Below, piece after piece: positions 22,301 through 39,289 of a stretch of DNA of 39,289 nucleotides (its first letter is position 1; the number at the start of each line of letters is the position of its first letter). Both the position numbers and the translations under genes were made by a program. The stretch comes from a virus, in the IMG/VR virus record IMGVR_UViG_3300044611_000904, positions 1 to 39,289 of that record; one strand, 5' to 3'. The notes under the pieces were generated by a model that did not search any database, was not told where the DNA came from, and was given only the letters and a program-made list of their open reading frames with translations.

Positions 22301-25300
22301 TAATAATACCTGTAATTTTCCCTCCTGTATTTGAACTTACACCAACTTCAATAACTTTCATATATTCTTCATCAATTTTTAGAATATCTCTTGGTTGTAT
22401 TGAGGAAATACCACTAAGGTTGAAAGTAGAAATTCCAGCACTAATTCCACCACTGTTATAATCTAAACGATGTGATATTGGAGTAAACGTAATGGGTTGC
22501 TGTACAATACCATCAAGAGAAATGACACTCTTTGAGAGTTTTTTAGTCATTTCCAATTCATGAGCATTGCCGAGACCAACATCAGTAAATGTTACGCCAA
22601 TACCTAAAGATGCATAAGATTTTCTAGTTGCCAACTTAAATGTATCTGGTGTAAGTGCAATAGGATACACTTTTTCTGGTAATCTATTAGTAACAATACC
22701 AAGATAATTTGATGTTGCACCAATTCCCATTGCACTTTGACCAACACCAATAAAAGATGATTTGGGACTATAAATTAATTCTTCTCCTGTATTAAAGAAG
22801 TGATTTCTAATGGTGAATACACCAGTAGATAGGTTAAGTGTAGTAGAATCTGATGGATCAAATACCTTTTTATAAATGGGAATCTCTTCATGTTTTAAGG
22901 TAAAGTTGACTTTATTTGCTCTTGTACCATTAATGCCATCATATGCGGATAAAAATAGACTTTGAGTCGTATTTCCATACTTTAATGAAGGTGGTTCATT
23001 ATCAAAATCACTATACGTATAAAGGACTTCATTAAATCCTTGAATATTTGTATTGGAACTTGAAGAATCTGGGTAGAAATTTAAGAAGAATTTATTTCCA
23101 GAAATTTCTCCTCCAAAAGTTCCAAGTCCTGTTACATTATTTGTTGGTGAAAAAGGACCAGGAACAACGGTTATATTTTCAGTATCGTTTAAAACTGAAA
23201 CCTGATGAATTGCAGAACTGTTTCCAGAAGAAACTCTTACAATAGATGAAACAGATGATATTAAATCTAAATCAAATGTTCCTACTTTAATAGAAGTAGT
23301 GCCAAAACCAACGGTTGATTCTAACTTGGCAGTTCTCTCTGCTCCAATTGGTTGTCCAGGTAAAGAAAATCTATAAGTCCCAATACCAGAACTAGTTGCA
23401 GCAAACCCTACAATATTAGATCTAACATCTAGAAGGTTAACTTCATCATTTTGAACTCTAAATGATACAATTCCCGCATTAGGATCGTAGATTGCTGTTA
23501 CAATGCCAATAGAAGATAGACTATATGATTGAGTTCTAGTGTCAAAGTAATACTCACTTAGATACGTATTTGATCCATCAAAATCTAATGCAGCTTCAAT
23601 ATAATTTACTTCTTTGCTTAGAGTATTTGTAACTTCAATATTTGCAAATAAACCGTTAAAGTTAGTATCTGAGAACTGTGCGATAGTTCTTATACTATTT
23701 GCTGTTCCCACACTGGAAATTCCAATGATAGTAGATCCTATTAAATTAATAGAACCGAATGTATTAGTTCCAATTCCCGACCCTACTTCTGGAGATGCAA
23801 AAGTTTTCTTCAAAATTTTAATGTCATGATCTCTATCAAATCTGTCTGTTGGTGTAAATATTAGAGTTTTTCTTCCAGCATCATCAACATTTGCACTAAA
23901 CTCCCCAAGCAATTCATTACTATATGCCGTATATTTTTCAAATAAGATAGAGTCTAATGTTGTTGTTTGTAGCACAAGTTCGGTTATTTGTGAATCATAT
24001 GTATCAGGATCCACAATCTGAATTGTATATCTTACATGAGAATCAATAGTATCAATTTCTTCAATTTCTACAAATGGATCTTCAAACCCTCTGCTTGAAA
24101 ATCTTGAACTAATATCATCATGAATTAAAACTCTATTAGTCCTACATTCAGTATAATCAGTTAATTTTCTATTTTGTATTTTTAAGTACTTGGATTGATC
24201 TGGATTTGTTCTGATGTCATAGTCAATAACATTATCAAAATTATTAATAACATCTACTCTTTTTTCTTCAATAACGTCTAAAACAGCTATGCTATTTGTT
24301 GTTCCAGAAAGTCCAACAGAAGCTCTTGTTGATGATATAATGCCAACATCTGCGAAATTTTTCAATCCAGCTGGGTGAATAATACTATTAACAGGAGAAA
24401 CAAATTTATCCCAAGTTATTGGACTCTTAATAGAATAAGAAAGATTTTGATAATAATCATTATCAGGAGTAACCTGATAATCTTCGCTTAATTTTCCAAT
24501 ATCATTTCTCCACCCAATGTTTTGTTTAGATGAATAGTCAATTTTAAATTTAGATTTATTTTGATTAACAGAACTTACATCTGATATTGCACCACTTACT
24601 TTTCCTTTAATTTGATCACCCTTTTTAAGTGCGTAAGACCCATTAACCTTAATATATTCATCTCTTATAGAGGATACATATAGATCTCTCTCAATAAATC
24701 CTGTACCAGTATTAACAAACAATTGCTCGTTTAATGCAAATGCTGCTCTCTTTTTAATTACATTAATTTCTGGATAATGTTTCTTATTAATAATAGTTGC
24801 ATATCCAGATTGGAAAGTTTTTGCAATTCCTGGATTTGTTGACAATCCAACACCTAGTTCATCTACAACCGCAAAAGTTAAGACTGCTGGATTAGAATTA
24901 ACATAAGACTGTACTTTGAAAAATCTATAATCATAATTTTTAGAATTATATCCTGTTCCATTATCAATTAAATCAATACCTTCAACAAAAATTTCATCAC
25001 CATCTGCAAATAATGGTGCAGTAAATCCTAAAATTGGTGTCGATAATGTGCAAGTTGCAACACCAGTGTTTCCAGTAACTATTGAACTAATTCCAGCTCC
25101 ATTAGAATTATTAATTGCAATAACTTTATGTTGATCAGATTTTAATCCATATATTGGTGCTATTTGATTTACTTCCGAAATTGCACCACTTGGAGTAATT
25201 GCAATTAAAGAAGAACTATCAATAACTGTTTTTGTTTTATCGTTCCAAAGTAACAAATCTGGTGCAGTTAAATACCTAGAACCTCCCGAAACTATATCAA

Positions 25301-28300
25301 TTTCATCAATTGTATTAGAATTATCTAATTTTACAATAGGTGAAATAAATGCTTCAGGAGTCAGAGTTTTATCAGATGGATATTCATATCCAACATCTTT
25401 AATTCTAACATTTTTAATTCTTCCGATAGAAGTTGATACTGCTACAATATTAGCATCCTGTCCTTCTTCAGTAGTTATGTCTTTAAATTTCGGAAGTTTT
25501 TTGAAATTAAATCCTTCAGAAATAATTTTTATTTTTCCAATAGAACCATTTATTGCTGTTGAAGATTTTGTAGAATATTCTAATTTATCAGTTTGATCAG
25601 AAGTATATTTTAAAACGGATGGAACTTGTGATGGAGATATCTTAAAAGAATTTGTTGATATTCCAAAAATACTATATGTTCCATTGTATTCACTATCTAC
25701 ATAATTAATTTGAGAATAATTTCTAACATCTTTATCAGCGGTACTTATATAACCAGATTTTTCTAGAGCATAGAAAAGTTTTGATGGAGTATTTTCTGTA
25801 CACTTGATTGAAAGTGATGCAGTTCCAAATCCAACTGTACCAACTCCAGTAACATTAAAGTTTCTAGAATCACTTGTGCTTACAAATTCATTTTTTAATT
25901 CTTCATCTTTAAAAATTTTAAGTTTATAACCATTCAGAGATGAATCACCAAGATTAAACTGTATCGTAGAATTTTTAACAACGTTTATGCTTGGATTTAT
26001 AAGGGCAAAAGTATGAATAGATGCACCAGTTCCAACAATGTTTACAACTTTCTCATTCGGTGGAATAGTCTCATAAAGAGTTTCTGCAAGTCTGAATTCA
26101 TTATTATTATCTTTAATTACATAGTATGATCCAGTTTCTAATCCAGAAGCAACCTGAGTACTATTATAGAAAATTTTATCACCAGTATTATATCCGTGAT
26201 TAGTTATAGTAATTGTGTTAGATGTAGTATTAATTTGTGAAGAATTAACACCTACTGGATTGACTAATATTTTTTTATCAGTTTCATTAAATGTTAGTGT
26301 TAATGCTGATGTAGTTCCAACACCAACGATAACGTTAGGAACTATGGTCAACTTAATAGAGTCATTATTCAATAACCCATGACTTTGAGCAGTGCTTACA
26401 ACAGTCACCACTCTATCAATTTGACCAGTTACTTGATTATAATTTGTTTGTAATAGATATTCGGAGTTATCTGTACCATCACTATAAAAATATAGACCCT
26501 CACTGTTTGTTGTTAATCCAACTTGGGTTACAAGTCCAACATAATCTTTACCTTTATTAATTATATAAACGTCAGATGTTAAAGTAAGAGTATTTGGAAT
26601 TTGGAATGTATTTAATGAAGATGCATCATTACCAACAATTAAAGAGTCAACACCTGCGAGATCGGATTTTGTAAATGTAACTCTTTGACCAGTTTTAAAT
26701 GGATGGTTTGGTAAATAAATGCTTCTGTAAGGAATAGATACTGTTTCGGATGTAACTCCAATAGTAAATGTTTTATATATTGCTCCTCCAAAAGTTGTCC
26801 CAATACCAACAGAATTTTTTGCATTAAAATAAACTAGATCATTTGGTTTAGAATCAAACTGTGGTATTTTAGATCTACTTTTTATAGTAATTTTATCATT
26901 TAAAACATCTAATCTACTGCTATAAGTATGTGCAACACCAGAACTAGCAAATCTCTTAACCTTTAAAACACCATTATTATAATCATTTAAAACCTTTACA
27001 ATTTCTGTACCAAGATTTGACTTAATACTGATACTTCCGCCAATTGATACTGTTGGTCTAGTAGTGACAAAAATATCTTCAGATTTTCCACCAGGAGTAG
27101 ATGAATAACTACTCATAGTTATTGCTAAACCAACAGTTTCTGTTGTTAACCCTATTGATTTTGATCCTGGTAGGTTATTAATTGATGTTGAAAGACCACT
27201 GATTAGTACAGTGTCATTATTAAGCAAATCAAATCCTGATCTGTAATATGCAAAAACAGACTGATCCGTATCGGATACGAAAACACATGAAGTATAAGTT
27301 TCTAGTGATGTTTCAATACTAGTAACGTTTTTACCTACAAGTTCAGAAATTTCAGCTCTAAGACCTGTTCCTTCCGTACCTTCCTCATCAAAATTTACAG
27401 TCTCTCCAATTCTATAACCTGTTCCACCATCAATTATATCAATACTATTAACACTACCGGATTTAACAGATTCAATAACTGATACTTGTGGTATTATTTC
27501 ATAAGGTTCTAGTAAGAAATCATAATTTGCATACTTATCATTGAGTTTATATGGTAAAGTATTTCTAATAAGATTTGAATTATTGAAATCAAAACTTTGA
27601 TTTAAGTAAGAATTTTCCTCAATAAAAGAAGACCTAAATGTATTTCCAATAAAATATGGGTAAAGAGGTTCAAGTTTATTAGAAGTAATGCTTCTAGTTA
27701 CACTAGCAAAATATGCATATACACCATTTGGAAATTCTGGTGTTTTACAAAATCTACCATTATGCCTATCAAGGTCTCCATTTCCAGTATATTCAAAATC
27801 TTCAATAAAAAATCCAGAAGTAAATGATGGTCTATTTGAAATATTTCCAGAATTTAATGAATAACTGGGATTCAAAAGTCTAACACCAGACTGAATGTCA
27901 TTTGGATCCGAATATCCATAAGGTCCATAAATTGGATTTCCATCATATGCCCATCCAATAATTGGAGAGTGAGAAATTCCATTATCAAAATAATTACTTG
28001 CTAAATCCTCCGAATATCCATATATTCCATAAACAAGAGAATCCTCAGTAAGATTTTTATTGAGACTTGAAAATATTTTTGTATTTAAAGTTCTCGAGTA
28101 AGTTGCATATCTTTCAGCATCATTAACTGTTAGATCTCTAACACTAGTATCAAATATTGCTCCAGAACCTCTTGGTTTTACTCTAATAGATGTATTAGAG
28201 TCGCTATAACCAATACCAGAATTGATAACAATGACGTTAGTAATCTTTCCATCATCTATGACTGGTCTAAGTATAGCACCAGTACCATTTCCATCTATAA

Positions 28301-31300
28301 TAAGTTCTGGTGTTGAATAATACTCAGATCCAGTACTTAAAACTTGAACATCAATTATTCTACCATTTGAAACAATAGGATTTAATTGTGCATTTTTTCC
28401 ATTTTTAACAGTAATTAATGGTTTTTTGTGTAGATTTAAAGTATTTGATCCATACTCAGTTCCGTTTTCATATAAGTATGATCCTATAATTTCGCCAGTA
28501 ACAATTGGAGTAAATGTGAAACTACCTGTAAATGTTGATCCATAAGATACATTTGCAGTGACTTGAATTGGAGGATATTCGAAAATATGATATCCAGATC
28601 CAGTGGAATTAATATTTACAATCTTATCTCTTACAAGATCTGTAGTTACCGTAGCTCCAAATCCAACATTAATTAATTTAAAAGTATCAGAATCAATAGT
28701 TTTTACTGAATAACTAGACGTTGTCGATAAACCAGAAATTTCTGTTCCAGTTGAGGAGTAGATAATAACATCACCAGTTTTAAAACCATGATTCTTAAAA
28801 GTTATAGTATTATAATCAGTGGAAATTCCAGATGCTTTAACTCTTAATTTTCTATATTGATATCCAGATCCACCTTCTAAAACCTTTATATTTCTAATTG
28901 TTTTTTTAGATAATGTTCTAAACTTATGAATTCCAGAAAATGAAGTAGAGGTTGAAAACCCAATTGTATTAATTCCAGACAAATAATCAGATTCTGTATT
29001 AAAAAGTTTAATTGTCCTTGTATTTACAAATTTAGCAATATACTCATCACCACTTACCAATGCTCCAGTTGGAGTATTTGATACATCACCAAAAGTTCCA
29101 ATCAATAATGGATCATTTCCATTTTGATTATAAATTATTCTTTCTCCATCGGCAAAATTATGAAAAGTTTGGAATGTGATGGTTTCATCAGTTAAATCTA
29201 CACCACCTCCAATTGTAAGTGCCCTACTATCAAATTCAACTTCCCTAAATCTTTCTCCTATAATTGGTTCTAAAATGCAACCAGATCCATTGCCACCAGT
29301 TAAAGTAATTGAAATAGCAGTATCAACATCAAAGTCCTGTGGATCAACATAAACCGATTTTACGATTCCACTAATAATTGGATCAACAAGAGCAGTAACT
29401 CCAGTTCCAGTCGTTGAACCAGAGGAAATTATAATTCTTGGTGGATTAACAACATCATAATCTTTACCAGAATTTAATACGTTAAATTCTTTAATTGGTC
29501 CATAATAAATCTTATCTAATGATTCTGGACAAGAAATTTCCACACCATCGATTAAGAGACCAATTCCACCTATTACATTATTGATGGATCTTCTTAAAGA
29601 TGTTCCATTATTTGATGTAATTTTTTCTATTGGAAATTTTCTTAAAATTTTATTTGCTGAAATATTTCTATTCTCATGCCTTTTTAGTGTAAAAACATGA
29701 GTTCCAGAAGTTGTTTTTTCTTGGAATCTAACATATTCCGATCCACTAAGAAGAGATTTTGATGCATATAATCTTATACCATTAGTCCCAACTAATCTTA
29801 CATAATATTCAAATCCAGATATTAAACCAGAAAGTGGATTACTTGATGTATATACAACAACATCACCATCAATAAATCTTACATTTGATGGAAATCTAAT
29901 AATAGAATATGCCTGAGAAACACTATCATAATCATCAAGATAAGATGATGAACCATTAGGTATACTAGATTCTACGATCTCGTCATTAATCTGATATGAT
30001 GGTAGAGAGTTTGATGCTACGTAGGATTCTTTATCTAGATTATTATAAACGTTTAATGTATTTGAAATATAGTTATTATTGCCAAGTACAAGAGGAACAT
30101 TTAAACTTGTTGCTTTTTTTATCTTTCTTCTGATATCATATGATTGTGTTGAAACTGGTGTAAATCCAGAAATATTGCTCAGAATAATCTGATTTAGAGC
30201 AGTGTTAATACTGGTAACAATTGCATTTGAAGAGGCAATATTATTTGTGTATGAATATAAAATATCAACTGTATCACCTTCTCTTAAACTAGATTTATCA
30301 ATTAAACTCAGTAAAGTGAAAGTGGATCCAGAAATACTAGATACTTGATATCTGGTGCTTGTATTATAAATCCAAGAATTTGCAAATACTTCTTTATAAG
30401 TCTTATCTCCAGATGTAGGATTGTCAATAATCTCTCCAAGATTTTTAACTGTTATTTCTTCACCTTCATCAATAAGTGATACATTTCCTAATTCTTCAAA
30501 TCCAGAAATAACTCCGGTTATACGCAAATCAACTCTTTTTGATGTATCACCATTTTCATATCCAAAAATAGTTTCATTTGATCTGATATCAGATGCAATT
30601 GATATTGAATCAGTAATTCCAGTGCATCCAAAAAATTGATTGATACTTTTTGAAGTATAATCAATAATATTATCTCCAGATATCAGTGTACCAGTTTGCC
30701 CAAATCCAATAGTAGAATCAACAGAAATAATAGAAGATCCAACGGAAACATTTTCTAATACTTTTGTTTTTCCTGGAATTGTAAAAATTCCTTCAATCAA
30801 ATCTCTTTCATTATAACCAACAAATAAACCCAATTGATAATAGGTTTCGTTGTTTTTTGTAAAAATTTCAACATCGGATACTGATGCGTTAGTTGTTGTA
30901 TCCGTTGATTTAAATATAGTTTGTCCTTCTAAATTTAGTGGATTACCTGAAATATTTTTAGCTACAACAATTTCTCTTCTAATGTAGTCTGCTGCTGATG
31001 GTTTAATTAATCTTGCTTCAAGATCTAAAACATTCGCATCTACACCATATAAAACCTTAAAGAGAATTTTTACAGATTCTTCAATACCTTTTGACTGATA
31101 AAAATCTCTTGCGTGTTTAATAAAGTTCCCAACATCAAGGTCAGAAACAAAATCATAATTTTCTAATCCAGGTGTAAAGGTATATTTTAATTTTTTATAA
31201 AATTCTTGTAAAAATAATACGCTTAAATTAGTTACAATTGAAGTTTTATTATGACTTGCTGCTGTAGTTTTTGAGAATGTTAAACTTTGTTTATTAACAT

Positions 31301-31718
31301 TATCATCAAAACTAGAAATACCAACATTAGAATAATTGGTAATTCCGCTAAATCCACGCACACATCCGGTAAAAGTATTTGTTGTAATACCAGTATACGT
31401 GATAATTTCATCGTCTATTTTTAATAGACCATATTCAGATGGAAAACCTTTTGTAGAGGTAACAGTAACAATTCCAGCAGAGGATGTTACATCATATACT
31501 AATGATGTTTGACCAGTAACGACTTCTGGAACTAAATTATCAAGCTTCAAATACTGATCTAAGTTTTCTGCAATATCTACAGTTCCACCTTGGAACTCTT
31601 GCGAAATGTAGTATTGTTTGAAAAATTCAGTTGCTTTTGGAAAATCCGAAACTATAAATTCTGGAAGTTGACTCTCAATAATCTTATTGATTTGTACTCT
31701 CTTCTCAAAATCTGACAT
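19335..31718 (-). CDS. Giant baseplate wedge protein at the gp7 position (4127 aa)
   Basis: Its place between gp6 and gp8 is that of gp7, the wedge initiator, which is about 1,030 residues in T4 but much larger in cyanomyoviruses. The N-terminus (MSDFEKRVQINKIIESQLPE, then FPKATEFFKQYY) and the helical region near residues 170-215 (FLQEFYKKLKYTFTPGLENY) are conserved in cyanophage relatives. Residues about 1235-1340 resemble a YHYH domain (IIGWAYDGNPIYGPYGYSDP; then NGRFCKTPEFPNGVYAYF). Much of the remainder is beta-rich with GxGY repeats (GSGYQYRK, GIGYSDSN, GGTGYRIG, GSGYVEPY, GFGYSTSVP, GFGYTVAPN). Near residue 3550 VEVVETF-like helical and FPLYYNGQLLSFEVDPNNPL segments mark another domain. 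A good ribosome site (GAGAGGAAA) precedes the ATG. The reading frame is open throughout its 12.4 kb. gp7 identity is inferred from position. Confidence 0.88.
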   Translation of the reverse strand: MSDFEKRVQINKIIESQLPEFIVSDFPKATEFFKQYYISQEFQGGTVDIAENLDQYLKLDNLVPEVVTGQTSLVYDVTSSAGIVTVTSTKGFPSEYGLLKIDDEIITYTGITTNTFTGCVRGFSGITNYSNVGISSFDDNVNKQSLTFSKTTAASHNKTSIVTNLSVLFLQEFYKKLKYTFTPGLENYDFVSDLDVGNFIKHARDFYQSKGIEESVKILFKVLYGVDANVLDLEARLIKPSAADYIRREIVVAKNISGNPLNLEGQTIFKSTDTTTNASVSDVEIFTKNNETYYQLGLFVGYNERDLIEGIFTIPGKTKVLENVSVGSSIISVDSTIGFGQTGTLISGDNIIDYTSKSINQFFGCTGITDSISIASDIRSNETIFGYENGDTSKRVDLRITGVISGFEELGNVSLIDEGEEITVKNLGEIIDNPTSGDKTYKEVFANSWIYNTSTRYQVSSISGSTFTLLSLIDKSSLREGDTVDILYSYTNNIASSNAIVTSINTALNQIILSNISGFTPVSTQSYDIRRKIKKATSLNVPLVLGNNNYISNTLNVYNNLDKESYVASNSLPSYQINDEIVESSIPNGSSSYLDDYDSVSQAYSIIRFPSNVRFIDGDVVVYTSSNPLSGLISGFEYYVRLVGTNGIRLYASKSLLSGSEYVRFQEKTTSGTHVFTLKRHENRNISANKILRKFPIEKITSNNGTSLRRSINNVIGGIGLLIDGVEISCPESLDKIYYGPIKEFNVLNSGKDYDVVNPPRIIISSGSTTGTGVTALVDPIISGIVKSVYVDPQDFDVDTAISITLTGGNGSGCILEPIIGERFREVEFDSRALTIGGGVDLTDETITFQTFHNFADGERIIYNQNGNDPLLIGTFGDVSNTPTGALVSGDEYIAKFVNTRTIKLFNTESDYLSGINTIGFSTSTSFSGIHKFRTLSKKTIRNIKVLEGGSGYQYRKLRVKASGISTDYNTITFKNHGFKTGDVIIYSSTGTEISGLSTTSSYSVKTIDSDTFKLINVGFGATVTTDLVRDKIVNINSTGSGYHIFEYPPIQVTANVSYGSTFTGSFTFTPIVTGEIIGSYLYENGTEYGSNTLNLHKKPLITVKNGKNAQLNPIVSNGRIIDVQVLSTGSEYYSTPELIIDGNGTGAILRPVIDDGKITNVIVINSGIGYSDSNTSIRVKPRGSGAIFDTSVRDLTVNDAERYATYSRTLNTKIFSSLNKNLTEDSLVYGIYGYSEDLASNYFDNGISHSPIIGWAYDGNPIYGPYGYSDPNDIQSGVRLLNPSYSLNSGNISNRPSFTSGFFIEDFEYTGNGDLDRHNGRFCKTPEFPNGVYAYFASVTRSITSNKLEPLYPYFIGNTFRSSFIEENSYLNQSFDFNNSNLIRNTLPYKLNDKYANYDFLLEPYEIIPQVSVIESVKSGSVNSIDIIDGGTGYRIGETVNFDEEGTEGTGLRAEISELVGKNVTSIETSLETYTSCVFVSDTDQSVFAYYRSGFDLLNNDTVLISGLSTSINNLPGSKSIGLTTETVGLAITMSSYSSTPGGKSEDIFVTTRPTVSIGGSISIKSNLGTEIVKVLNDYNNGVLKVKRFASSGVAHTYSSRLDVLNDKITIKSRSKIPQFDSKPNDLVYFNAKNSVGIGTTFGGAIYKTFTIGVTSETVSIPYRSIYLPNHPFKTGQRVTFTKSDLAGVDSLIVGNDASSLNTFQIPNTLTLTSDVYIINKGKDYVGLVTQVGLTTNSEGLYFYSDGTDNSEYLLQTNYNQVTGQIDRVVTVVSTAQSHGLLNNDSIKLTIVPNVIVGVGTTSALTLTFNETDKKILVNPVGVNSSQINTTSNTITITNHGYNTGDKIFYNSTQVASGLETGSYYVIKDNNNEFRLAETLYETIPPNEKVVNIVGTGASIHTFALINPSINVVKNSTIQFNLGDSSLNGYKLKIFKDEELKNEFVSTSDSRNFNVTGVGTVGFGTASLSIKCTENTPSKLFYALEKSGYISTADKDVRNYSQINYVDSEYNGTYSIFGISTNSFKISPSQVPSVLKYTSDQTDKLEYSTKSSTAINGSIGKIKIISEGFNFKKLPKFKDITTEEGQDANIVAVSTSIGRIKNVRIKDVGYEYPSDKTLTPEAFISPIVKLDNSNTIDEIDIVSGGSRYLTAPDLLLWNDKTKTVIDSSSLIAITPSGAISEVNQIAPIYGLKSDQHKVIAINNSNGAGISSIVTGNTGVATCTLSTPILGFTAPLFADGDEIFVEGIDLIDNGTGYNSKNYDYRFFKVQSYVNSNPAVLTFAVVDELGVGLSTNPGIAKTFQSGYATIINKKHYPEINVIKKRAAFALNEQLFVNTGTGFIERDLYVSSIRDEYIKVNGSYALKKGDQIKGKVSGAISDVSSVNQNKSKFKIDYSSKQNIGWRNDIGKLSEDYQVTPDNDYYQNLSYSIKSPITWDKFVSPVNSIIHPAGLKNFADVGIISSTRASVGLSGTTNSIAVLDVIEEKRVDVINNFDNVIDYDIRTNPDQSKYLKIQNRKLTDYTECRTNRVLIHDDISSRFSSRGFEDPFVEIEEIDTIDSHVRYTIQIVDPDTYDSQITELVLQTTTLDSILFEKYTAYSNELLGEFSANVDDAGRKTLIFTPTDRFDRDHDIKILKKTFASPEVGSGIGTNTFGSINLIGSTIIGISSVGTANSIRTIAQFSDTNFNGLFANIEVTNTLSKEVNYIEAALDFDGSNTYLSEYYFDTRTQSYSLSSIGIVTAIYDPNAGIVSFRVQNDEVNLLDVRSNIVGFAATSSGIGTYRFSLPGQPIGAERTAKLESTVGFGTTSIKVGTFDLDLISSVSSIVRVSSGNSSAIHQVSVLNDTENITVVPGPFSPTNNVTGLGTFGGEISGNKFFLNFYPDSSSSNTNIQGFNEVLYTYSDFDNEPPSLKYGNTTQSLFLSAYDGINGTRANKVNFTLKHEEIPIYKKVFDPSDSTTLNLSTGVFTIRNHFFNTGEELIYSPKSSFIGVGQSAMGIGATSNYLGIVTNRLPEKVYPIALTPDTFKLATRKSYASLGIGVTFTDVGLGNAHELEMTKKLSKSVISLDGIVQQPITFTPISHRLDYNSGGISAGISTFNLSGISSIQPRDILKIDEEYMKVIEVGVSSNTGGKITGIINSSGISTFPTVSVVRASVGSTATTHTDGATVQVYRGSFNIVGNEIWFVDPPKGNTRARRDASNLPYVRAQYAGRTFLRSNYDTNMIFDDVSDQFTGIGKTYTMTVEGINTTGVSIGNGILFINGVFQTPTTINNAGNNYEFANDNVAGISSVVFTGITSTDGTYIKSDFDINQNQLPRGGLIVSLGSTPGLGYAPLVGAKVRAVLNGSGTITSITGISHTGPGQSISTASYNNETGIIEITTTSNHNFVGGDRIKLVGLGFTCPSGAGIVSYFPSRGLDYSYDIVNIISSNSFTANVGTSTLPHSYIGFGTVFPWYDLNYGSGYRDPVSIGVTDPNHAGAGATITATVGAGGTLAFNVISGGSGYVEPYIKIPEPIYENLPVIGVSRVGVGSTTATGSNLLMNIKIGPSPSTVGIGSTLFLVESFQISRPGYAFQVGDIFKPVGLVTAKDYVQPLEEFQLEVVETFQDFFSSWSFGEMNYIDSISTLQNGSRTRFPLYYNGQLLSFEVDPNNPLSGAINLDAVLLIFVNGVIQEPTYAYRFFGGTSFEFTEAPKSSDKVDIFFYIGQNGVDISIIDVNETIKIGDDVFVRKNPFYPLITDQDRDRTIVDISGSDTVETDLYVGTSINDTNYRPIEWIKQKTDKYIKGDVVYKTRDSLEPFVYPTAKIIGDVTASSSNIFVDNAQFFNYEENNYGITITSVDGLIVQGTDPVAAAFTATVSAAGTISAITITNPGFGYSTSVPIKISNPRVGVGTFSLETVGLGVGIGIGITATAIANVSGSQIVSVSITNPGFGYTVAPNLIIEVPPVTSEKITGIANIQGFSGIITGISTTTGTGGHPLALKINFRANASDANDLQAGYPIFVYNTTVGNGVTSVNSNDSSVVGIGTSFLDNVYIVNSKTNFGPDAEIICNIKSNSNVIGIATTGSLTLPLGNISWGRLYNFSSRTNPISIGVTGLIVDSGLSTFPTIQRRTFGLRNSGAIRKLSNL

Positions 31719-35719: not shown

Positions 35720-36475
35720 TTAGATGATTCGTGACTTTTCGTGACCAACGCGAATGCGAGGATCACACCAGATTTCAAATCCTGCTTCTTTTGCATCCAA
35801 ACAGAAGGATACGTCTTCTCCACACATGTCTTGTACTTCACCAGATTCAAAGACTTGCATCTTCGGAGCAAACCAAGGATACTTCATCTCATCATGTTCA
35901 AAGACACCGTTCTTGATGAGTACCCAACCAAATCCAGTGTAATCAACAGTAAATGGCTTCCGTCGCTTCTGAATACTTTCCAGAGTTTCATGGTTCATTA
36001 CACCACCATTGCCTCTGAAATCATCTTCATCCAACCAATGTGCAACAGAGGTTGTCATACCATCTTCTGTACAATACCAACCAGCAGCAATGTCCTGATC
36101 CATCAGAACCAGTTGCCAGAACTTTTCACTGTTAAAGACGATATCACTATCAATCCACAGTTGCCAGTCGTATTTCAGTTTACCGTCCCAAGGTTTCTGA
36201 TCAGGACCACGAAGAACATTTGCACCTAGACACTTACAACGTGCAAAGTTCACCATCGAACTATAATCTTGTGAGATCTGAATACTTGCACCTGCTTGTA
36301 CTAGATCAAAACAAAGTTGAACAAAGTTTTTCAGATATGTATAAGAAACACCACGACCAGGAAGACAGAATACAATTGTCTTTCCCCGTACCATTTCTCT
36401 TGCCTTATCGTAGTCCCATTCAGGTTCTTTGGCGACTACTGGACTTTTTGCCTTTACAGTAAATCCTTTTGTCAT
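35720..36475 (-). CDS. Glycosyltransferase-like protein (251 aa)
   Basis: The protein looks like a GT-A fold nucleotide-sugar transferase. Residues 33-47 (TIVFCLPGRGVSYTY) fit the first strand and loop, and residues 104-114 (WQLWIDSDIVF) contain a DxD motif (D109-S-D111) that in this fold binds metal and the sugar nucleotide. Residues near 170-185 (FTVDYTGFGWVLIKNGVFEH) and the late GEDVSFCLDAKEAGFEIW match the acceptor-side segment of family 2-like enzymes. I use the ATG at 36475; the longer TTG start at 36493 would overlap the predicted transcript start. A consensus sigma-70 promoter lies just upstream, so the gene is probably early. The acceptor is unknown; modification of phage DNA bases, virion protein or host surface are all possible. 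Confidence 0.82.
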   Translation of the reverse strand: MTKGFTVKAKSPVVAKEPEWDYDKAREMVRGKTIVFCLPGRGVSYTYLKNFVQLCFDLVQAGASIQISQDYSSMVNFARCKCLGANVLRGPDQKPWDGKLKYDWQLWIDSDIVFNSEKFWQLVLMDQDIAAGWYCTEDGMTTSVAHWLDEDDFRGNGGVMNHETLESIQKRRKPFTVDYTGFGWVLIKNGVFEHDEMKYPWFAPKMQVFESGEVQDMCGEDVSFCLDAKEAGFEIWCDPRIRVGHEKSRII

Positions 36476-36497
36476 AACTTGATTAATTTTCAATCAT

Positions 36498-36526
36498 ATC
36501 ATACAGTATTATGTAGCGGTTGTCAA
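36498..36526 (-). promoter_or_regulatory. Consensus sigma-70 (early) promoter for the glycosyltransferase operon
   Basis: The minus strand has TTGACA (36521-36526), a 17-base spacer and TATGAT (36498-36503). This is a perfect -35 and a five-of-six -10. The start would be near 36,491, leaving a leader of about 15 bases before the ATG at 36475. A second TATGAT overlaps at 36493-36498. The -35 overlaps the stop codon of the upstream 52-residue gene. It bears no resemblance to the cassettes beyond 37,280. Confidence 0.78.
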
Positions 36527-36681
36527 TTGGTGACTTCCTGGTAATATAGATCTTCTACTGAGTAATCTGTCTTCATTAAACCAACCATATTCTTTAAAGT
36601 ACTCCAAGTTATTTCGAATTCTTTTTCATCAACATTCTGAAATAAACATCGATCCTTAGCGTAGATGTCATATTTTTTCAT
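36523..36681 (-). CDS. Conserved small cyanophage protein (52 aa)
   Basis: I translated this gene directly: it begins MKKYDIYAKDRCLFQNVDEK and continues EFEITWSTLKNMVGLMKTDY. This is a small protein family I know from cyanomyoviruses, with a strand pair, a helix, and the conserved GLMKTDYS segment. The ATG overlaps the stop of the AbrB-like gene by four bases (ATGA), so the two are translated together. Function is unknown. The pairing with an AbrB-like gene invites a toxin-antitoxin reading, but nothing in the sequence looks like a known toxin. Confidence 0.82.
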   Translation of the reverse strand: MKKYDIYAKDRCLFQNVDEKEFEITWSTLKNMVGLMKTDYSVEDLYYQEVTN

Positions 36682-36851
36682 TCATCTACCTCTGAAAGAA
36701 TAATGTCCTTTCCATCAAGATTAAAAAGAATCTCAGTATCTTCATACCAACCAAGTTCATTGATCATCCATTCTGGTAGTTTAATAGAATACTCACCTGT
36801 GATTGTATCAACCTCTATGGGGCGTTTTTCCTCTCCGGATTTTTTTCTCAT
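36678..36851 (-). CDS. AbrB/MazE-like DNA-binding protein (57 aa)
   Basis: Residues about 18-57 (TGEYSIKLPEWMINELGWYE, then DTEILFNLDGKDIILSEVD) follow the SpoVT-AbrB swapped-hairpin pattern: a G-x-x-S/T-I-x-L-P strand, a short helix ending in LGW, an acidic turn, and the final GKDIILS strand. Such proteins dimerise and bind A+T-rich DNA as regulators or antitoxins. The ATG at 36851 is used; a TTG at 36884 lies within the promoter. The gene is coupled to the 52-residue gene downstream. A partial copy of its start region sits about 70 bases upstream, a possible autoregulatory site. This is the last recognisable phage gene before the composition break. Confidence 0.75.
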   Translation of the reverse strand: MRKKSGEEKRPIEVDTITGEYSIKLPEWMINELGWYEDTEILFNLDGKDIILSEVDE

Positions 36852-36932
36852 TCTGATAGTTATTATTTTTGAATTATATAGCAAACCTTATAATTGTAGT
36901 TTATATCTCCGGAATTTTTTGATTCTGAGAGT
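36830..36932 (-). repeat. Imperfect direct repeat of the AbrB-like gene start region
   Basis: On the minus strand the segment at 36905-36932 (ACTCTCAGAATC, an A-rich run, then TCCGGAGAT) imperfectly matches the segment at 36830-36860 that contains the gene start (ACTATCAGAATG, an A-rich run, then TCCGGAGAG). The start codon ATG is ATC in the upstream copy. The copies flank the -10 element. They could be a duplicated gene start or a pair of binding sites. Confidence 0.5.
36873..36878 (-). promoter_or_regulatory. Possible -10 element (TATAAT) for the AbrB-like gene
   Basis: TATAAT on the minus strand lies 21 bases before the ATG, in the context TTTGCTATATAAT, where TGC before TATATA also gives an extended -10. 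No good -35 is present at 16-18 bases. The spacing and the lack of any other candidate make it the likely promoter, but evidence is modest. Confidence 0.45.
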
Positions 36933-37042
36933 ATTTGAAATGCCTTTATGATTTATCGCGCTTCCGTAACACTTTGTAGGTTAGGGTAGTTATGGGTTTT
37001 ATAACAACCCCCCCTTATACCCCATCACGCGCCGCGCCCGAC

Positions 37043-37061
37043 CCCCCGCACCCGGCGGGGG
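37043..37061 (-). terminator. G+C-rich hairpin at the downstream end of the small-gene array
   Basis: Arms CCCCCGC and GCGGGGG enclose a five-base loop, giving a very stable 7-base-pair stem about 50 bases after the last array gene stops. There is no T run after it, so it is not a standard intrinsic terminator, though it could pause polymerase or protect the 3' end. A second small stem, GGGCG/CGCCC, lies at 37090-37102. Confidence 0.4.
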
Positions 37062-37110
37062 ACCTGCGTCTGCACGAACGCACCCATAAGGGCGCGGCGC
37101 CCCGCAGGGG

Positions 37111-37281
37111 TCAGTCGCGGTCGCTGATGTTCCACCGACCCCATCCGCCGTTAGCGTGGGCATCGCGGGTTTCGATTGCCTGCATCCGCTGAGTCAGAGT
37201 GTACTTACCCCAAAGGGTGAGGTCGGTGCTCTGATAGCAGTCTTCCCAAATACGGTTGGCGGTTTCGAGGGTCATGGTCAT
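37111..37281 (-). CDS. Array gene A: small protein with WEDC motif (56 aa)
   Basis: I start this gene at the ATG at 37281 (MTMTLETANRIWEDCYQSTD); a reading from 37335 would translate the promoter. It is unrecognised. It shares features with array gene H at the other end of the array: MTxTL at the start, (I/L)W(E/D)DC around residues 11-15, Arg-rich helices, and an ending with GG(W) and DRD. This suggests the two are distant paralogues. It is preceded by a promoter cassette and is the last gene of the array. High G+C and lack of a Shine-Dalgarno sequence match its neighbours in the array and differ from the phage genes to the left. No domain or function can be assigned. Confidence 0.65.
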   Translation of the reverse strand: MTMTLETANRIWEDCYQSTDLTLWGKYTLTQRMQAIETRDAHANGGWGRWNISDRD

Positions 37282-37306
37282 GGTCGGTTGCTTGTGAACT
37301 GGAATC

Positions 37307-37345
37307 AGTATAGCAGGTCGGGGGCAGGGTGGCACCCCACCCCCA
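37307..37345 (-). promoter_or_regulatory. Promoter cassette A (extended -10, altered stem-loop)
   Basis: TATACT at 37307-37312 preceded by GACCTGC is the shared extended -10; the ATG is 25 bases further on. The -35 position carries TGCCAC in place of TTGACC. The region keeps an inverted repeat, GGGTGG and CCACCC around GGTG, though its sequence differs from the standard stem. Confidence 0.65.
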
Positions 37346-37353
37346 CGAACAGA

Positions 37354-37548
37354 TCAGTCAAAGCACGGTGCTTTGACGGTGTGAGCACAAGACTCAGAAT
37401 ACTGTCCAGCAATGATGGCAGTAGGCACACCCCAGTGAACGTACTGAGAGGGGCGACCGTCAGCATTCTTAGCATTATCAGCAGCAGAGATCCACACGGT
37501 CTGGCGGTCAGCGATGCGGGTTGCCTGAGAGAGAGGGAAGCGGGTCAT
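37354..37548 (-). CDS. Array gene B: small protein, partly related to gene C (64 aa)
   Basis: The protein begins MTRFPLSQATRIADRQTVWI and is unrecognised. Residues about 18-31 (TVWISAADNAKNADG) align with array gene C (TIFWIEAAYAAKQHG), so the N-terminal half appears to share the fold of genes C and D. The C-terminal half differs (QYVHWGVPTAIIAGQYSESC) and lacks the DAGExLxWLGY ending. The last codons (VKAPCFD) fall on a perfect 21-base palindrome, which may mean the 3' end was replaced. Start by ATG 26 bases after the -10; stop TGA. Function unknown. Confidence 0.65.
   Translation of the reverse strand: MTRFPLSQATRIADRQTVWISAADNAKNADGRPSQYVHWGVPTAIIAGQYSESCAHTVKAPCFD
37357..37377. repeat. 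Perfect 21-base palindrome at the 3' end of gene B
   Basis: Arms GTCAAAGCAC (37357-37366) and GTGCTTTGAC (37368-37377) surround a single central G. It covers the last seven codons before the TGA. As RNA it would fold with nine pairs and a three-base loop; with no T run beyond, it looks more like a symmetric protein-binding site or a stability hairpin than a terminator. Confidence 0.7.
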
Positions 37549-37574
37549 GGTCGGTTCGGGTGTGAACTGAGATC

Positions 37575-37610
37575 AGTATAGCAGGTCGGGGGCAGGGGTC
37601 AACCTGCCCC
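37575..37610 (-). promoter_or_regulatory. Promoter cassette B with -35 in a stem-loop
   Basis: The -10 TATACT (37575-37580) has the TGC of an extended -10 before it, a 16-base spacer, and -35 TTGACC (37597-37602). TTGACC is exactly the loop of a perfect inverted repeat, GGGGCAGG and CCTGCCCC (37589-37610). Leader type: CTGATCTCAGTTCACA then CCCGAACCGACC before the ATG. Confidence 0.75.
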
Positions 37611-37618
37611 ATAGGGAA

Positions 37619-37810
37619 TCAGTACCCCAACCACACCAGAAATTCGCCAGCGTCGACCCCACCAAAGTCAGAGGTCGTGCCGTAGTCGGTGCGGAAGTCA
37701 TCCCACAGACCGTGCTGTTTGGCAGCGTATGCCGCTTCGATCCAGAAGATGGTCCCGTTCTCAGGGTTGGTGATTTCAGCGATCTGAGCGGGGAAGGTGG
37801 AGCAGGTCAT
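37619..37810 (-). CDS. Array gene C: DAGE-WLGY family small acidic protein (63 aa)
   Basis: Unrecognised, but clearly paralogous to array gene D next to it. Shared positions are the TFxxQ start, an NG turn near residue 18, AxYAAxxHG (residues 26-34), (D/E)FxxxYGT, and the ending GVDAGEFLVWLGY. Both are 63 residues with a strongly acidic composition and no Cys pair, signal or membrane segment. The fold is likely a small helical domain. It starts with ATG 26 bases after its -10 and ends with TGA a few bases before the next cassette. Small acidic early proteins of phages often bind and modify host proteins, but no such role is shown here. Confidence 0.72.
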   Translation of the reverse strand: MTCSTFPAQIAEITNPENGTIFWIEAAYAAKQHGLWDDFRTDYGTTSDFGGVDAGEFLVWLGY

Positions 37811-37836
37811 CGGTCGGTTGCTTGTGAACTGGAATC

Positions 37837-37872
37837 AGTATAGCAGGTCGGGGGCAGGGGTCAACCTGCCCC
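37837..37872 (-). promoter_or_regulatory. Promoter cassette C with -35 in a stem-loop
   Basis: -10 TATACT at 37837-37842, spacer 16, -35 TTGACC at 37859-37864 in the loop of GGGGCAGG/CCTGCCCC (37851-37872). Leader type: CTGATTCCAGTTCACAAGC then AACCG before the ATG, the same as cassette A apart from the last bases. Confidence 0.75.
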
Positions 37873-37879
37873 ATAGGGG

Positions 37880-38071
37880 TCAGTATCCCAACCAGGTCAA
37901 CAGTTCGCCCGCGTCGATCCCATAGATTCCCCAGTGGTCAGCGGTGCCGTACTCCTGCAGGAACTCATTCATGCTGCCGTGAAGGTCGGCAGCATACAGG
38001 GCGTCGTCATAGGTGACGCATCCGTTGTCATCGGCAATGGTCAACAGTTGATCGGAGAAGGTCTCAGGCAT
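37880..38071 (-). CDS. Array gene D: DAGE-WLGY family small acidic protein (63 aa)
   Basis: Paralogue of gene C: MPETFSDQLLTIADDNGCVT at the start, then DALYAADLHG, FLQEYGTADHWG and the ending GIDAGELLTWLGY. The two proteins keep the same length and the same end, but many positions between differ, so the duplication is old or the copies came separately. The protein is acidic with one Cys. The start lies 26 bases after its -10. Function unknown. Confidence 0.72.
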   Translation of the reverse strand: MPETFSDQLLTIADDNGCVTYDDALYAADLHGSMNEFLQEYGTADHWGIYGIDAGELLTWLGY

Positions 38072-38097
38072 CGGTCGGTTGCTTGTGAACTGAGATC

Positions 38098-38133
38098 AGT
38101 ATAGCAGGTCGGGGGCAGGGGTCAACCTGCCCC
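38098..38133 (-). promoter_or_regulatory. Promoter cassette D with -35 in a stem-loop
   Basis: -10 TATACT at 38098-38103, spacer 16, -35 TTGACC at 38120-38125 within the loop of GGGGCAGG/CCTGCCCC (38112-38133). The leader is a hybrid: CTGATCTC as in cassettes B and E, then ACAAGCAACCG as in A and C. Confidence 0.75.
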
Positions 38134-38139
38134 GTAGGG

Positions 38140-38364
38140 TCAAACGGCAACCCAGTAAGACTTGCCGCTGCGCTCCTGCTGCTCTGCCATGATGTAGTCG
38201 GCGCTGCCATAGGCGCTGCGCCATCCCTGGACCTGGAAGTAGCAGTCCTCCAGGGTGCTGGCGTAGGCAAGGGTGCGGGCGATCTTATCGCCCTTCACGA
38301 ACGCCACCGCGAACGGGTAGCGGATGGGGGAAAGGATCGTCTGCAGGGGGGTGGGATCGGTCAT
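38140..38364 (-). CDS. Array gene E: small protein (74 aa)
   Basis: I start this gene at the ATG at 38364 (MTDPTPLQTILSPIRYPFAV), 27 bases after the -10; an open frame back to 38508 runs through the upstream gene and cassette and is rejected. The protein is unrecognised. It contains AVAFVKGDKIARTLAYASTL, which reads like two strands and a helix, and LEDCYFQVQGWRSAYGSADY, then a Lys/Ser end (SGKSYWVAV). The ending and length do not match the other array proteins. It may form a pair with gene F, which ends only five bases before the -10 of this cassette. Confidence 0.65.
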   Translation of the reverse strand: MTDPTPLQTILSPIRYPFAVAFVKGDKIARTLAYASTLEDCYFQVQGWRSAYGSADYIMAEQQERSGKSYWVAV

Positions 38365-38391
38365 GGTCGGTTCGGGTTGTGAACTGAGATC

Positions 38392-38405
38392 AGTATAGCA
38401 GGTCA
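38392..38405 (-). promoter_or_regulatory. Promoter cassette E, core only (no stem-loop)
   Basis: -10 TATACT at 38392-38397 with CTGACCTGC before it. The TGA stop of gene F (38403-38405) provides the first three bases of TGACCTGC, and the GGGGCAGG/TTGACC/CCTGCCCC block is absent. No good -35 is present, so activity would rely on the extended -10. Leader type as cassette B. Confidence 0.6.
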
Positions 38406-38585
38406 GCGAACGTCCTGCAGAGCGGTTGCCTTGGTGCTCTGGTGAACCGATCGGGAACCAGCACCAGTGCGAACACGGGAGGAACCGCCTTTGATTCGGG
38501 ATGCCCAACGGTTGGCGCTAGCGCCATGGGCAACGGGCAGGCGGGTGACCTTGAATTGAATGCCGTCGATGGTGGTGGTGGTCAT
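38403..38585 (-). CDS. Array gene F: small basic Ser/Arg-rich protein (60 aa)
   Basis: The protein begins MTTTTIDGIQFKVTRLPVAH and is unrecognised. Unlike the acidic genes C and D it is rich in Arg, Ser and Gly through residues 26-52 (RWASRIKGGSSRVRTGAGSR), with no hydrophobic core there, which suggests an unfolded or nucleic-acid-binding tail after a short N-terminal strand pair. The ATG is 23 bases after its -10. Its stop codon is merged with the next promoter. Function unknown. Confidence 0.62.
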   Translation of the reverse strand: MTTTTIDGIQFKVTRLPVAHGASANRWASRIKGGSSRVRTGAGSRSVHQSTKATALQDVR

Positions 38586-38608
38586 CGGGTTCAGGTGTGA
38601 ACGTGTTC

Positions 38609-38644
38609 AGTATAGCAGGTCGGGGGCAGGGGTCAACCTGCCCC
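38609..38644 (-). promoter_or_regulatory. Promoter cassette F with -35 in a stem-loop
   Basis: -10 TATACT at 38609-38614, spacer 16, -35 TTGACC at 38631-38636 in the loop of GGGGCAGG/CCTGCCCC (38623-38644). The leader (GAACACGTTCACACCTGAACCCG) differs from the other types, though it keeps GTTCACA. Confidence 0.75.
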
Positions 38645-38651
38645 GTAGGGT

Positions 38652-38855
38652 TCAGTGGGTCTGGTAGTAGCGTGCCAGACCGATCAGACTCGAGTCTTCC
38701 ACAATGGTCTTACCAAAGCGGTGGAAGGTCTTGCCCATGTCACCCTCCATCATGATGTCCTGAATCAGGTCACCGCTCAGAGCGGAGATGAAGGTCCCGC
38801 CGTAGGGAGCGTTGAACTGAGCGGAGAGGGTTTCGATCGCTTGTGCTTTGGTCAT
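38652..38855 (-). CDS. Array gene G: small protein (67 aa)
   Basis: The protein begins MTKAQAIETLSAQFNAPYGG and continues with TFISALSGDLIQDIMMEGDM, then a GKTFHRFGKTIVED segment and the end LARYYQTH. It is unrecognised. It looks like a small mixed helix-strand domain without Cys. It starts with ATG 23 bases after a TACAAT -10. The upstream cassette has diverged from the consensus, with a different stem. No Shine-Dalgarno sequence is present, as for all array genes. Function unknown. Confidence 0.65.
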   Translation of the reverse strand: MTKAQAIETLSAQFNAPYGGTFISALSGDLIQDIMMEGDMGKTFHRFGKTIVEDSSLIGLARYYQTH

Positions 38856-38878
38856 CGGTCTTTGTCTGAACTGAGAGA

Positions 38879-38912
38879 ATTGTAGCAGGTCGGCAGGGGG
38901 GCAGGATGCCCC
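38879..38912 (-). promoter_or_regulatory. Promoter cassette G (divergent)
   Basis: -10 TACAAT at 38879-38884 preceded by GACCTGC. TTGACC is missing, but a different perfect inverted repeat, GGGGCA and TGCCCC around three bases (38898-38912), lies at the equivalent place. The leader is CTCTCAGTTCAGACAAAGACCG. Confidence 0.6.
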
Positions 38913-38924
38913 TAGGTGGACGGT

Positions 38925-39137
38925 TCAGCGAGCGTCCCTGTCCTCCTGAGTGACCCCACCGTTCCATCCTGCATCCTGCATCTCCCAGAGCAGGTCATAG
39001 GATTCGGGGCAGGCATCCTCACGGGTGAGCATCTCCCGCAGCAGGCGATCCTGAAAGTCATAGTCGCCGTTGCGCTGGCAGTCATCCCAGAGCGATTCCA
39101 GTTCTTCAAAGGTCAGGTCCTGGAGGGTGAGGGTCAT
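38925..39137 (-). CDS. Array gene H: small acidic protein with WDDC motif (70 aa)
   Basis: I start this at the ATG at 39137 (MTLTLQDLTFEELESLWDDC), 21 bases after the -10; a TTG start at 39173 would translate the promoter. Unrecognised. It is strongly acidic and helical (RNGDYDFQDRLLREMLTRED; then DLLWEMQDAG) and ends GGVTQEDRDAR. It shares MTxTL, LW(D)DC and the GG...DRD end with gene A. The distribution of charged and aliphatic residues is that of a small helical bundle. Function unknown. Confidence 0.68.
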   Translation of the reverse strand: MTLTLQDLTFEELESLWDDCQRNGDYDFQDRLLREMLTREDACPESYDLLWEMQDAGWNGGVTQEDRDAR

Positions 39138-39158
39138 GGGTCCGTTGCGGTTGAGAGA

Positions 39159-39172
39159 ATTATAGCAGGTCA
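39159..39172 (-). promoter_or_regulatory. Promoter cassette H, core only with perfect -10
   Basis: -10 TATAAT at 39159-39164 preceded by TGACCTGC. The TGA of that string is the stop codon of the truncated gene upstream (39170-39172). No stem-loop and no good -35 are present. The leader is CTCTCAACCGCAACGGACCC. Confidence 0.62.
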
Positions 39173-39289
39173 AAAGGCGACCTCATGATCCCAGTAGAGA
39201 TGCCACAGGGCGGTCAGAGTCTCCCGCTCCCGCTGCTGACGGTAGTGTGCCCAGGACTCGTGCTCAAAGGGACGCAGGGCGGCAGCGCG
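39170..39289 (-). CDS. Truncated gene at the right edge (last 39 aa)
   Basis: An open frame enters from the right edge and ends with TGA at 39170-39172. Its last residues include RPFEHESWAHYRQQRERETL and LWHLYWDHEVAF, a helical, Arg/Glu/Trp-rich end. The whole frame is free of stops, and the stop meets the next cassette as in gene F, so it is likely the next array gene. Nothing more can be said of its product. Confidence 0.5.
   Translation of the reverse strand, partial: RAAALRPFEHESWAHYRQQRERETLTALWHLYWDHEVAF

Follow-up and report, generated by a model that had tools for sequence, protein, structure and literature searches.

Candidate promoter-early stem-loop-like exchange units in a small-gene array of a T4-like cyanophage

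Introduction

Cyanophage genomes are full of tiny orphan genes, the gain and loss of which are unexplained. One end of a 39,289-base stretch of viral DNA (IMG/VR record IMGVR_UViG_3300044611_000904, analysed at its full length and referred to here as the window) carries a row of eight such genes, each behind a promoter-like cassette, and raises the question of how an array of this kind is built and how its genes change. In T4-type phages, promoter-early stem-loop (PeSL) elements serve as exchange points by means of an early promoter and a stem-loop, and PeSL units between the small genes of plastic regions have reportedly been described as points of exchange. A preliminary description, made from the letters of the window, had likened the array to these elements. 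We find that it probably does consist of PeSL-like promoter/hairpin exchange units in a plastic small-gene region of a cyanophage, a reading adopted because of its unit structure, its positioned -10 boxes, changing gene neighbours, homologous blocks that end at cassettes and a cassette shared among genes. Since the locus is marked by a conserved sequence and can be read in more than 100 viral-contig stretches, the rules of gene turnover become directly measurable. A second, unexpected result is a composition island: in many lineages, part of the phage genome differs in base composition from the rest, a finding relevant to how the guanine-plus-cytosine (GC) content of phages is set.

Results

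Eight small genes and their cassettes

On the minus strand of the window, eight sites carry GACCTGC followed by a -10 box (TATAAT once, TACAAT once and TATACT six times), at 21, 23, 23, 27, 26, 26, 26 and 25 nucleotides (nt) from the ATG of genes 1 to 8, respectively. All eight open reading frames (ORFs) start with ATG, and their lengths in amino acids (aa) are listed below with the cassettes, in gene order.

38925-39137, minus strand: small gene 1, 70 aa; -10 TATAAT at 39159-39164; cassette without a hairpin
38898-38912 (approximate), minus strand: gene 2 cassette hairpin, GGGGCATCCTGCCCC; folding z of the stretch 0.1
38652-38855, minus strand: small gene 2, 67 aa; -10 TACAAT at 38879-38884
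38609-38644, minus strand: gene 3 cassette; hairpin GGGGCAGG-TTGACC-CCTGCCCC at 38623-38644, GACCTGC, -10 TATACT at 38609-38614; z -2.7
38403-38585, minus strand: small gene 3, 60 aa
38140-38364, minus strand: small gene 4, 74 aa; -10 at 38392-38397; hairpin-free cassette that overlaps the gene 3 stop
38098-38133, minus strand: gene 5 cassette; GGGGCAGG-TTGACC-CCTGCCCC hairpin at 38112-38133, -10 at 38098-38103; z -3.2
37880-38071, minus strand: small gene 5, 63 aa; paralogue of gene 6 (46% identity)
37837-37872, minus strand: gene 6 cassette; GGGGCAGG-TTGACC-CCTGCCCC hairpin at 37851-37872, -10 at 37837-37842; z -3.5
37619-37810, minus strand: small gene 6, 63 aa; paralogue of gene 5
37575-37610, minus strand: gene 7 cassette; GGGGCAGG-TTGACC-CCTGCCCC hairpin at 37589-37610, -10 at 37575-37580; z -2.6
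37354-37548, minus strand: small gene 7, 64 aa; protein 100% identical in locus L145
37307-37345, minus strand: gene 8 cassette; a different hairpin without TTGACC, -10 at 37307-37312; z -1.1
37111-37281, minus strand: small gene 8, 56 aa; last gene of the array

These features bear out two statements of the preliminary description, namely that eight ATG ORFs of 56-74 aa follow a GACCTGC plus TATACT-like -10 at 21-27 nt, and that each small ORF terminates at or shortly ahead of the following cassette. It had set the array at 37282-39172; the array is indeed there, but that span omits gene 8, and the array continues beyond the window end. Contig L144, which is 100% identical to the window over 2,890 nt, extends it by about 4 kb with 14 further -10 plus ORF units (the nearest lying partly inside the window), so that window and L144 together hold an array of about 6 kb with at least 22 genes. 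The idea of one shared cassette stood for the -10 core, found ahead of all eight genes, but not for the GGGGCAGG-TTGACC-CCTGCCCC hairpin, which is found ahead of genes 3, 5, 6 and 7 only (folding z -2.6 to -3.5). The cassettes of genes 2 and 8 contain different hairpins, whose stability is not clearly above that of shuffles (z 0.1 and -1.1), and those of genes 1 and 4 contain none. As a composite of -10 and stem-loop, the window cassettes thus carry the -10 in 8/8, a hairpin in 6/8 and a fold with z below -2 in 4/8 cases. In the four cassettes with the shared hairpin, TTGACC precedes TATACT by 16 nt, which places a -35-like box in the hairpin loop.

The recurrence of the cassettes exceeds chance: a promoter-like scan of 36400-39289 found 11 sites vs. 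1.9 ± 1.5 in shuffles, five of the 11 being array cassettes, and the array holds a 71-nt repeat in five copies and a 39-nt repeat in seven. An Rfam search of 36400-39289 returned nothing up to E 5. Comparison with L145, which covered five of the eight window genes, gave nonsynonymous/synonymous (dN/dS) counts of 0.024/0.466 for gene 3 (from the second codon), 0.117/0.329 for gene 4, 0.021/0.051 for gene 5, 0/0.144 for gene 7 and 0/0.273 for gene 8, values that point to purifying selection on several array genes.

A positioned -10 across the surveyed loci

The survey drew on a conserved boundary element at the edge of the array, the core of which is present in at least 119 stretches of viral contigs, and on relatives of gene 3 (the best 80 of 101 stretches). 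Removal of near-identical loci and of those with less than 300 nt before the element reduced 201 loci to 139, 91 of them with the element. Families 2, 5, 10, 11, 25, 26, 33 and 45 were judged by inspection to belong to the late side; they were excluded from the block-end, next-gene-family, order, exact-hairpin ORF-start, hairpin-propensity, TG[GT]CACA and GC3-position analyses and from the per-locus cassette similarity figures, and were kept in the positioned -10 counts, the neighbour counts and the within/between-genome cassette similarity.

In total, 880 ORFs with a -10 at 17-36 nt were found in 127/139 loci, falling into 61 families present in at least three loci and 154 present in one (some of these ORFs are late-side). 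When 620 array ORFs were picked by length alone, the -10 rate reached 6.1 per 100 per position at 25-29 nt before the ATG vs. a background of 0.3-0.6 at 35-90 nt, a peak about 15-fold higher. Folding with z below -2 was seen in 224/708 distinct cassettes vs. 72/708 gene-interior stretches, and TTGAC-centred stems of at least 6 bp occurred at 17/49 distinct sites, a modest excess over shuffled arms (15% mean, 29% maximum). Our first cassette pattern was found in 16 contig stretches, mostly as single sites, and S-SCSM2R has few such cassettes (8 in 12.8 kb).

A further motif, TG[GT]CACA, lies 20-60 nt before the -10 in 185/735 cassettes (71 loci), with 6, 2 and 8 in reversed and shuffled controls, and sometimes directly behind a stop codon (loci including L023, L144, L222, L223 and L225). 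Its reverse complement is also enriched (83 cassettes, mostly 40-50 nt before the -10), and the motif could be a regulator site or an RNA signal.

One hairpin ahead of many gene families

The preliminary description had proposed that many different small genes behind one cassette would support exchange, and this is what the exact hairpin GGGGCAGGTTGAC[C/G]CCTGCCCC reveals. It occurs in 27 viral-contig stretches, some of them near-copies of the window itself, in 102 copies (duplicates between loci included), ahead of 32 distinct proteins in 21 unrelated families. An ATG ORF of at least 30 aa starts 30-75 nt after the hairpin in 102/102 cases vs. 281/874 nearby control positions, and 36-42 nt after it in 97/102 vs. 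68/874. In L145, six cassettes share TTGACG plus TACACT where four window cassettes have TTGACC plus TATACT, and genes 5 and 7 are orthologous between the two loci despite these differences; the identical pair of changes in all six cassettes is concerted change. The window's own cassettes are unusually alike, with a similarity of 0.60 that ranks second of 77 loci (median 0.38).

Gene turnover with breaks at cassettes

Gene neighbours change: gene 3 has 13 different upstream neighbours in 32 instances, and other families range from nearly fixed to highly variable in this respect. The ends of homologous blocks (at least 85% identity over at least 120 nt) fall in cassettes in 163/191 cases, against an expectation of 30% from the cassettes' share of the labelled array. 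A right-hand block end that stops short of the following ATG in both loci is followed by genes of different families in 60/61 cases, and a left-hand end lying behind a stop adjoins different families in 39/41; no different-family gene pair at block ends was similar even at E 0.1. Between the window and L145, most array blocks have a start or an end that lies roughly a dozen bases or fewer from a border between gene and cassette, and two blocks of homology in L145 (1861-1940 and 2684-2756) comprise a cassette only, with different genes after it. Exchange and indels are thus bounded by the elements, with order otherwise mostly kept.

Each tiny gene is a self-contained unit made of a cassette and its ORF, the cassette consisting of a sigma70-type -10 and a short leader, often with a hairpin ahead of them. 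Because some cassettes are alike, homologous recombination could occur between them, within one genome or between co-infecting phages, and in this way single genes could be lost, duplicated, replaced or gained, and at times reordered, with their expression left intact. PeSL elements of T4-type phages are said to operate along these lines. Host RNA polymerase would use the -10 boxes early in infection, the hairpins would terminate transcription and so stop read-through from the preceding unit, and recombination in the cassettes would be the cause of the turnover.

Several observations weigh against this reading. The cassettes are putative promoters, predicted from sequence. Half of the window cassettes (4/8) lack the shared hairpin; no T-run follows the window hairpins, and a terminator scan found no terminator on the minus strand (T-runs are present after hairpins in some P-SSM2 and AG-345-F15 cassettes). 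By the pattern used, no -10 is present in the copy shown for 8 of the 21 families that follow the exact hairpin, and -10 rates on the late side are elevated too, at 15-24 and 30-34 nt, without a peak at 25-29 nt. Block ends come from BLAST and are not independent, and intergenic DNA diverges faster. Cassettes of different genes are scarcely more similar within a genome (0.294) than between genomes (0.269), and those of orthologous genes are more similar (0.398); judged from this small excess and the retained cassettes of orthologues, homogenising is local to a few loci. Gene order weighs in the same direction, with a minority order in 49/643 co-occurrences (cells), both orders in 26/101 family pairs (among pairs co-occurring in at least four loci) and near-fixed neighbours such as family 3 then 6 (16/19) and family 9 then 15 (12/13). 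Fifteen further loci contain two or more of the window genes. In 12 of them the sole departure from the window order is the last place of gene 3, an arrangement that may represent one event; the other three (L145, L195 and L100) follow the relative order of the window, apart from insertions or losses of genes.

Free shuffling is too strong a claim for a gene order this conserved, and the order check (49/643 in minority order) weakened it as a candidate. The shuffling idea of the preliminary description therefore survives as to block ends, which lie in cassettes beside different genes, but not as to order, which is mostly conserved; single-gene gain, loss and replacement appear to dominate, with occasional reordering.

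Much of this could also be produced if the cassettes were merely strong, similar promoters, their spacing kept by selection for early expression and the genes turned over by illegitimate recombination, with breaks inside ORFs purged and the cassettes playing no role as homology. The low within-genome cassette similarity in most loci (0.294 vs. 0.269) and the mostly conserved order agree with this account, and ORF-internal breaks would be purged under any mechanism. However, the concerted variants in six L145 cassettes, the cassette-only blocks of L145 with different genes after them and the single exact hairpin ahead of 21 families all need cassette copying or exchange, and we regard a promoters-only account as rather unlikely, and exchange units as the better reading.

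A GC island beside a boundary element

GC content along the window is 0.29-0.41 up to about position 37,000 and 0.60 thereafter, and the step is located at the boundary element.

36956-37004, minus strand: conserved boundary element, core CTAACCTACAAAGTGTTACGGAAGCG at 36959-36984; location of the GC step

This element (CTAACCTACAAAGTGTTACGgAAGCG) separates the array from the late genes and is present in the 91 non-redundant loci. It is preceded by TTATAAAA, with a TATAAAA late-promoter-like box, which we take to resemble a T4-type late promoter. The 45-nt stretch 36956-37000 matched only five records, including P-SSM2, P-SSM5 and AG-345-F15.

Across the same 91 loci (fewer outward), mean GC in successive kb on the array side, counted away from the element, is 0.464, 0.436, 0.422, 0.431, 0.406, 0.390, 0.387 and 0.372, and on the late side 0.348, 0.373, 0.346, 0.329, 0.318 and 0.307. 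The nearest array kb exceeds the late side in 56/57 non-redundant loci, with no joint increase of the two (r = -0.41); three loci of the undeduplicated list (L102, L059 and L107) have no array GC excess. Array GC ranges over 0.35-0.63 across loci, next to a late side that stays near 0.35. Only four 1-kb intervals of a 177-kb contig reach 0.48 GC, all in the array, as do four of a 128-kb contig, three in the array. In the phage contigs examined, the array forms the principal GC island (window 37000-39289; L144, L169, L191, G001 and G002).

A sharp step at an element common to many phages, a classic site for false joins, could in principle arise from a chimeric assembly in which a low-GC cyanophage contig was joined to unrelated high-GC DNA at the 45-nt element. 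The recurrence of the array excess in 56/57 loci argues otherwise, as do the 177-kb and 128-kb contigs, which carry the island near one end, locus L169, which has lower GC on both sides, and three other contigs (L068, L076/L143 and L144) in which this junction recurs at 99.9-100% identity. We therefore rejected a chimera as extremely improbable.

GC at third codon positions (GC3) is 0.72 in the window array vs. 0.22 in the window late genes. Among 36 loci with at least three array genes and enough late sequence, array GC3 spans 0.32-0.72, and late GC3 has a mean of 0.256 (standard deviation 0.044). Array GC3 correlates with array intergenic GC (r 0.88) and with GC at first (0.85) and second (0.82) codon positions, but not with late GC3 (r 0.15); within gene 3 alone it ranges over 0.38-0.89. 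Since intergenic DNA and the first and second codon positions shift too, an account by codon choice alone is disfavoured. The effect of position on GC3 per kb was -0.030 (standard error (se) 0.004) with locus effects, +0.006 (se 0.005) with family effects only and -0.012 (se 0.005) with both; it is mostly lineage and family.

The high GC3 of the window array would fit recent capture of its genes from a high-GC cyanobacterial host, with the composition inherited from it. On the other hand, no relative of the gene 3 and gene 5/6 families was confirmed in 84,980 bacterial and archaeal genomes (a pattern-seeded search for these two families), which leaves capture unsupported; the array families are spread over many phages; and in P-SSM2, too, array GC exceeds that of its own late side (0.42 vs. 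0.35). We consider host capture very unlikely. The GC of the P-SSM2 host is near 0.35, and the two P-SSM2 array kb nearest the element, at 0.42 and 0.45, argue against simple tracking of host GC.

The island could stem from biased conversion at a recombination-rich site or from circulation in a high-GC pool. Beyond the exchange-unit reading, it is conceivable, although we put it forward only tentatively, that P-SSM2-like cyanophages keep an exchange platform, that is, a GC island of promoter-bearing micro-genes fixed to a boundary element, with a composition set independently of the remaining genome and with recombining cassettes that are concerted in some lineages, the GC peak being a footprint of biased conversion or of the high-GC pool.

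Relation to known systems

The array is best read as a cyanophage variant of the already known PeSL-type arrangement, on the strength of the likeness between promoter-like plus stem-loop units set among small plastic-region genes. It differs from the PeSL elements of T4-type phages in its host group, in the -35-like box within the hairpin loop of several cassettes, in the frequent TGKCACA motif and in a GC island with a fixed boundary element. In 8 kb of T4 examined, TGKCACA was not enriched (2 matches vs. 1.2 expected). Integron gene cassettes likewise form a row of interchangeable small units beside a fixed boundary sequence; by comparison, the units here carry their own promoter-like boxes, and neither integrase nor attC turned up among ten window proteins scanned with PHROGs, no aimed search having been made.

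The closest cyanophage precedent is the S-PM2 ORFanage, described in passages of Puxty 2015 (PMC4503421) as a region of tiny ORFans for which metagenomes seldom show conserved synteny. These passages report one host-like promoter and two potential stem-loops and judge PeSL exchange unlikely; the regions are alike as cyanomyovirus tracts of tiny ORFans, and unlike in that cassettes are dense in the array here. By description only, the halovirus HF2 (PMC8707807) is similar in its repeated intergenic sequences that carry promoters, and differs as an archaeal virus. PMC3037559 treats genome-wide GC differences and variable islands in passages that do not include this array GC island. In the open-licence PubMed Central (PMC) literature, no title or abstract start concerned such cyanophage arrays or this GC island, and cyanophage and PeSL occurred together only in Puxty 2015 and, as reference titles, in a jumbo-phage review. 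The suggestion that the system was not obviously described in cyanophages fits this literature, but passages of Puxty 2015 (PMC4503421) had already weighed PeSLs for S-PM2 and judged them unlikely.

Phage identity, P-SSM2 synteny and further features

The window is part of the genome of a T4-like, P-SSM2-type cyanomyovirus, in keeping with the cyanophage host group of the preliminary description. Its left 37 kb form a T4-like cyanomyovirus structural cluster on the minus strand, and the array sits directly upstream of the late tail genes. A PHROG scan of ten window proteins found baseplate wedge gp6, gp25, tail sheath stabiliser, head closure, virion proteins and ferredoxin, and the top tblastn matches of one structural-cluster protein are in large cyanophages. 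Membership of the T4-type myoviruses follows from gp6, gp25, the head and baseplate PHROGs and synteny with P-SSM2, where gp6, gp25 and several genes are followed by the boundary element and then a same-strand row of small genes. A gene 3 homologue (56% identity) adjoins the element there (L023 6104-6298, NC_006883.2), and the genes neighbouring it are spaced by a TGGCACA-type motif, a hairpin (in many cases with a T-run) and a TATAAT-like box. With a matching layout at a matching place in P-SSM2, the arrangement exists in a sequenced isolate. The P-SSM2 gene 3 homologue is unannotated in RefSeq record NC_006883.2.

None of the eight small proteins gave a convincing family in Pfam, PHROGs, NCBIfam or PADLOC; the best weak profile matches were PHROG 25802 for gene 5 (E 0.0017) and NF041003 for gene 7 (E 0.004, far below the cut-off). 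Gene 3 has homologues in 66/139 loci (tblastn) and relatives in 101 stretches of viral contigs, and genes 5 and 7 had no tblastn match in 50,697 phage records up to E 1. A third copy of the gene 5/6 paralogue lies upstream in L144 (8580-8768). The structure model of genes 5/6 reached a predicted local distance difference test score (pLDDT) of 84, and that of gene 3 was poor (pLDDT 54); weak matches of the gene 6 model were small proteins of cyanopodoviruses (NATL1A-7, E 0.12; Syn5 gp4, E 0.48).

Two further features flank the boundary element:

37010-37105 (approximate), minus strand: very GC-rich strong fold between gene 8 and the late side; 126 nt folded, -68.2 kcal/mol, z -1.8
36678-36884, minus strand: first small ORF of the low-GC late side; PHROG 661, E 4e-9; listed with a TTG start

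The structural cluster also contains two giant ORFs, at 10115-17737 (2,540 aa) and 19335-31718 (4,127 aa).

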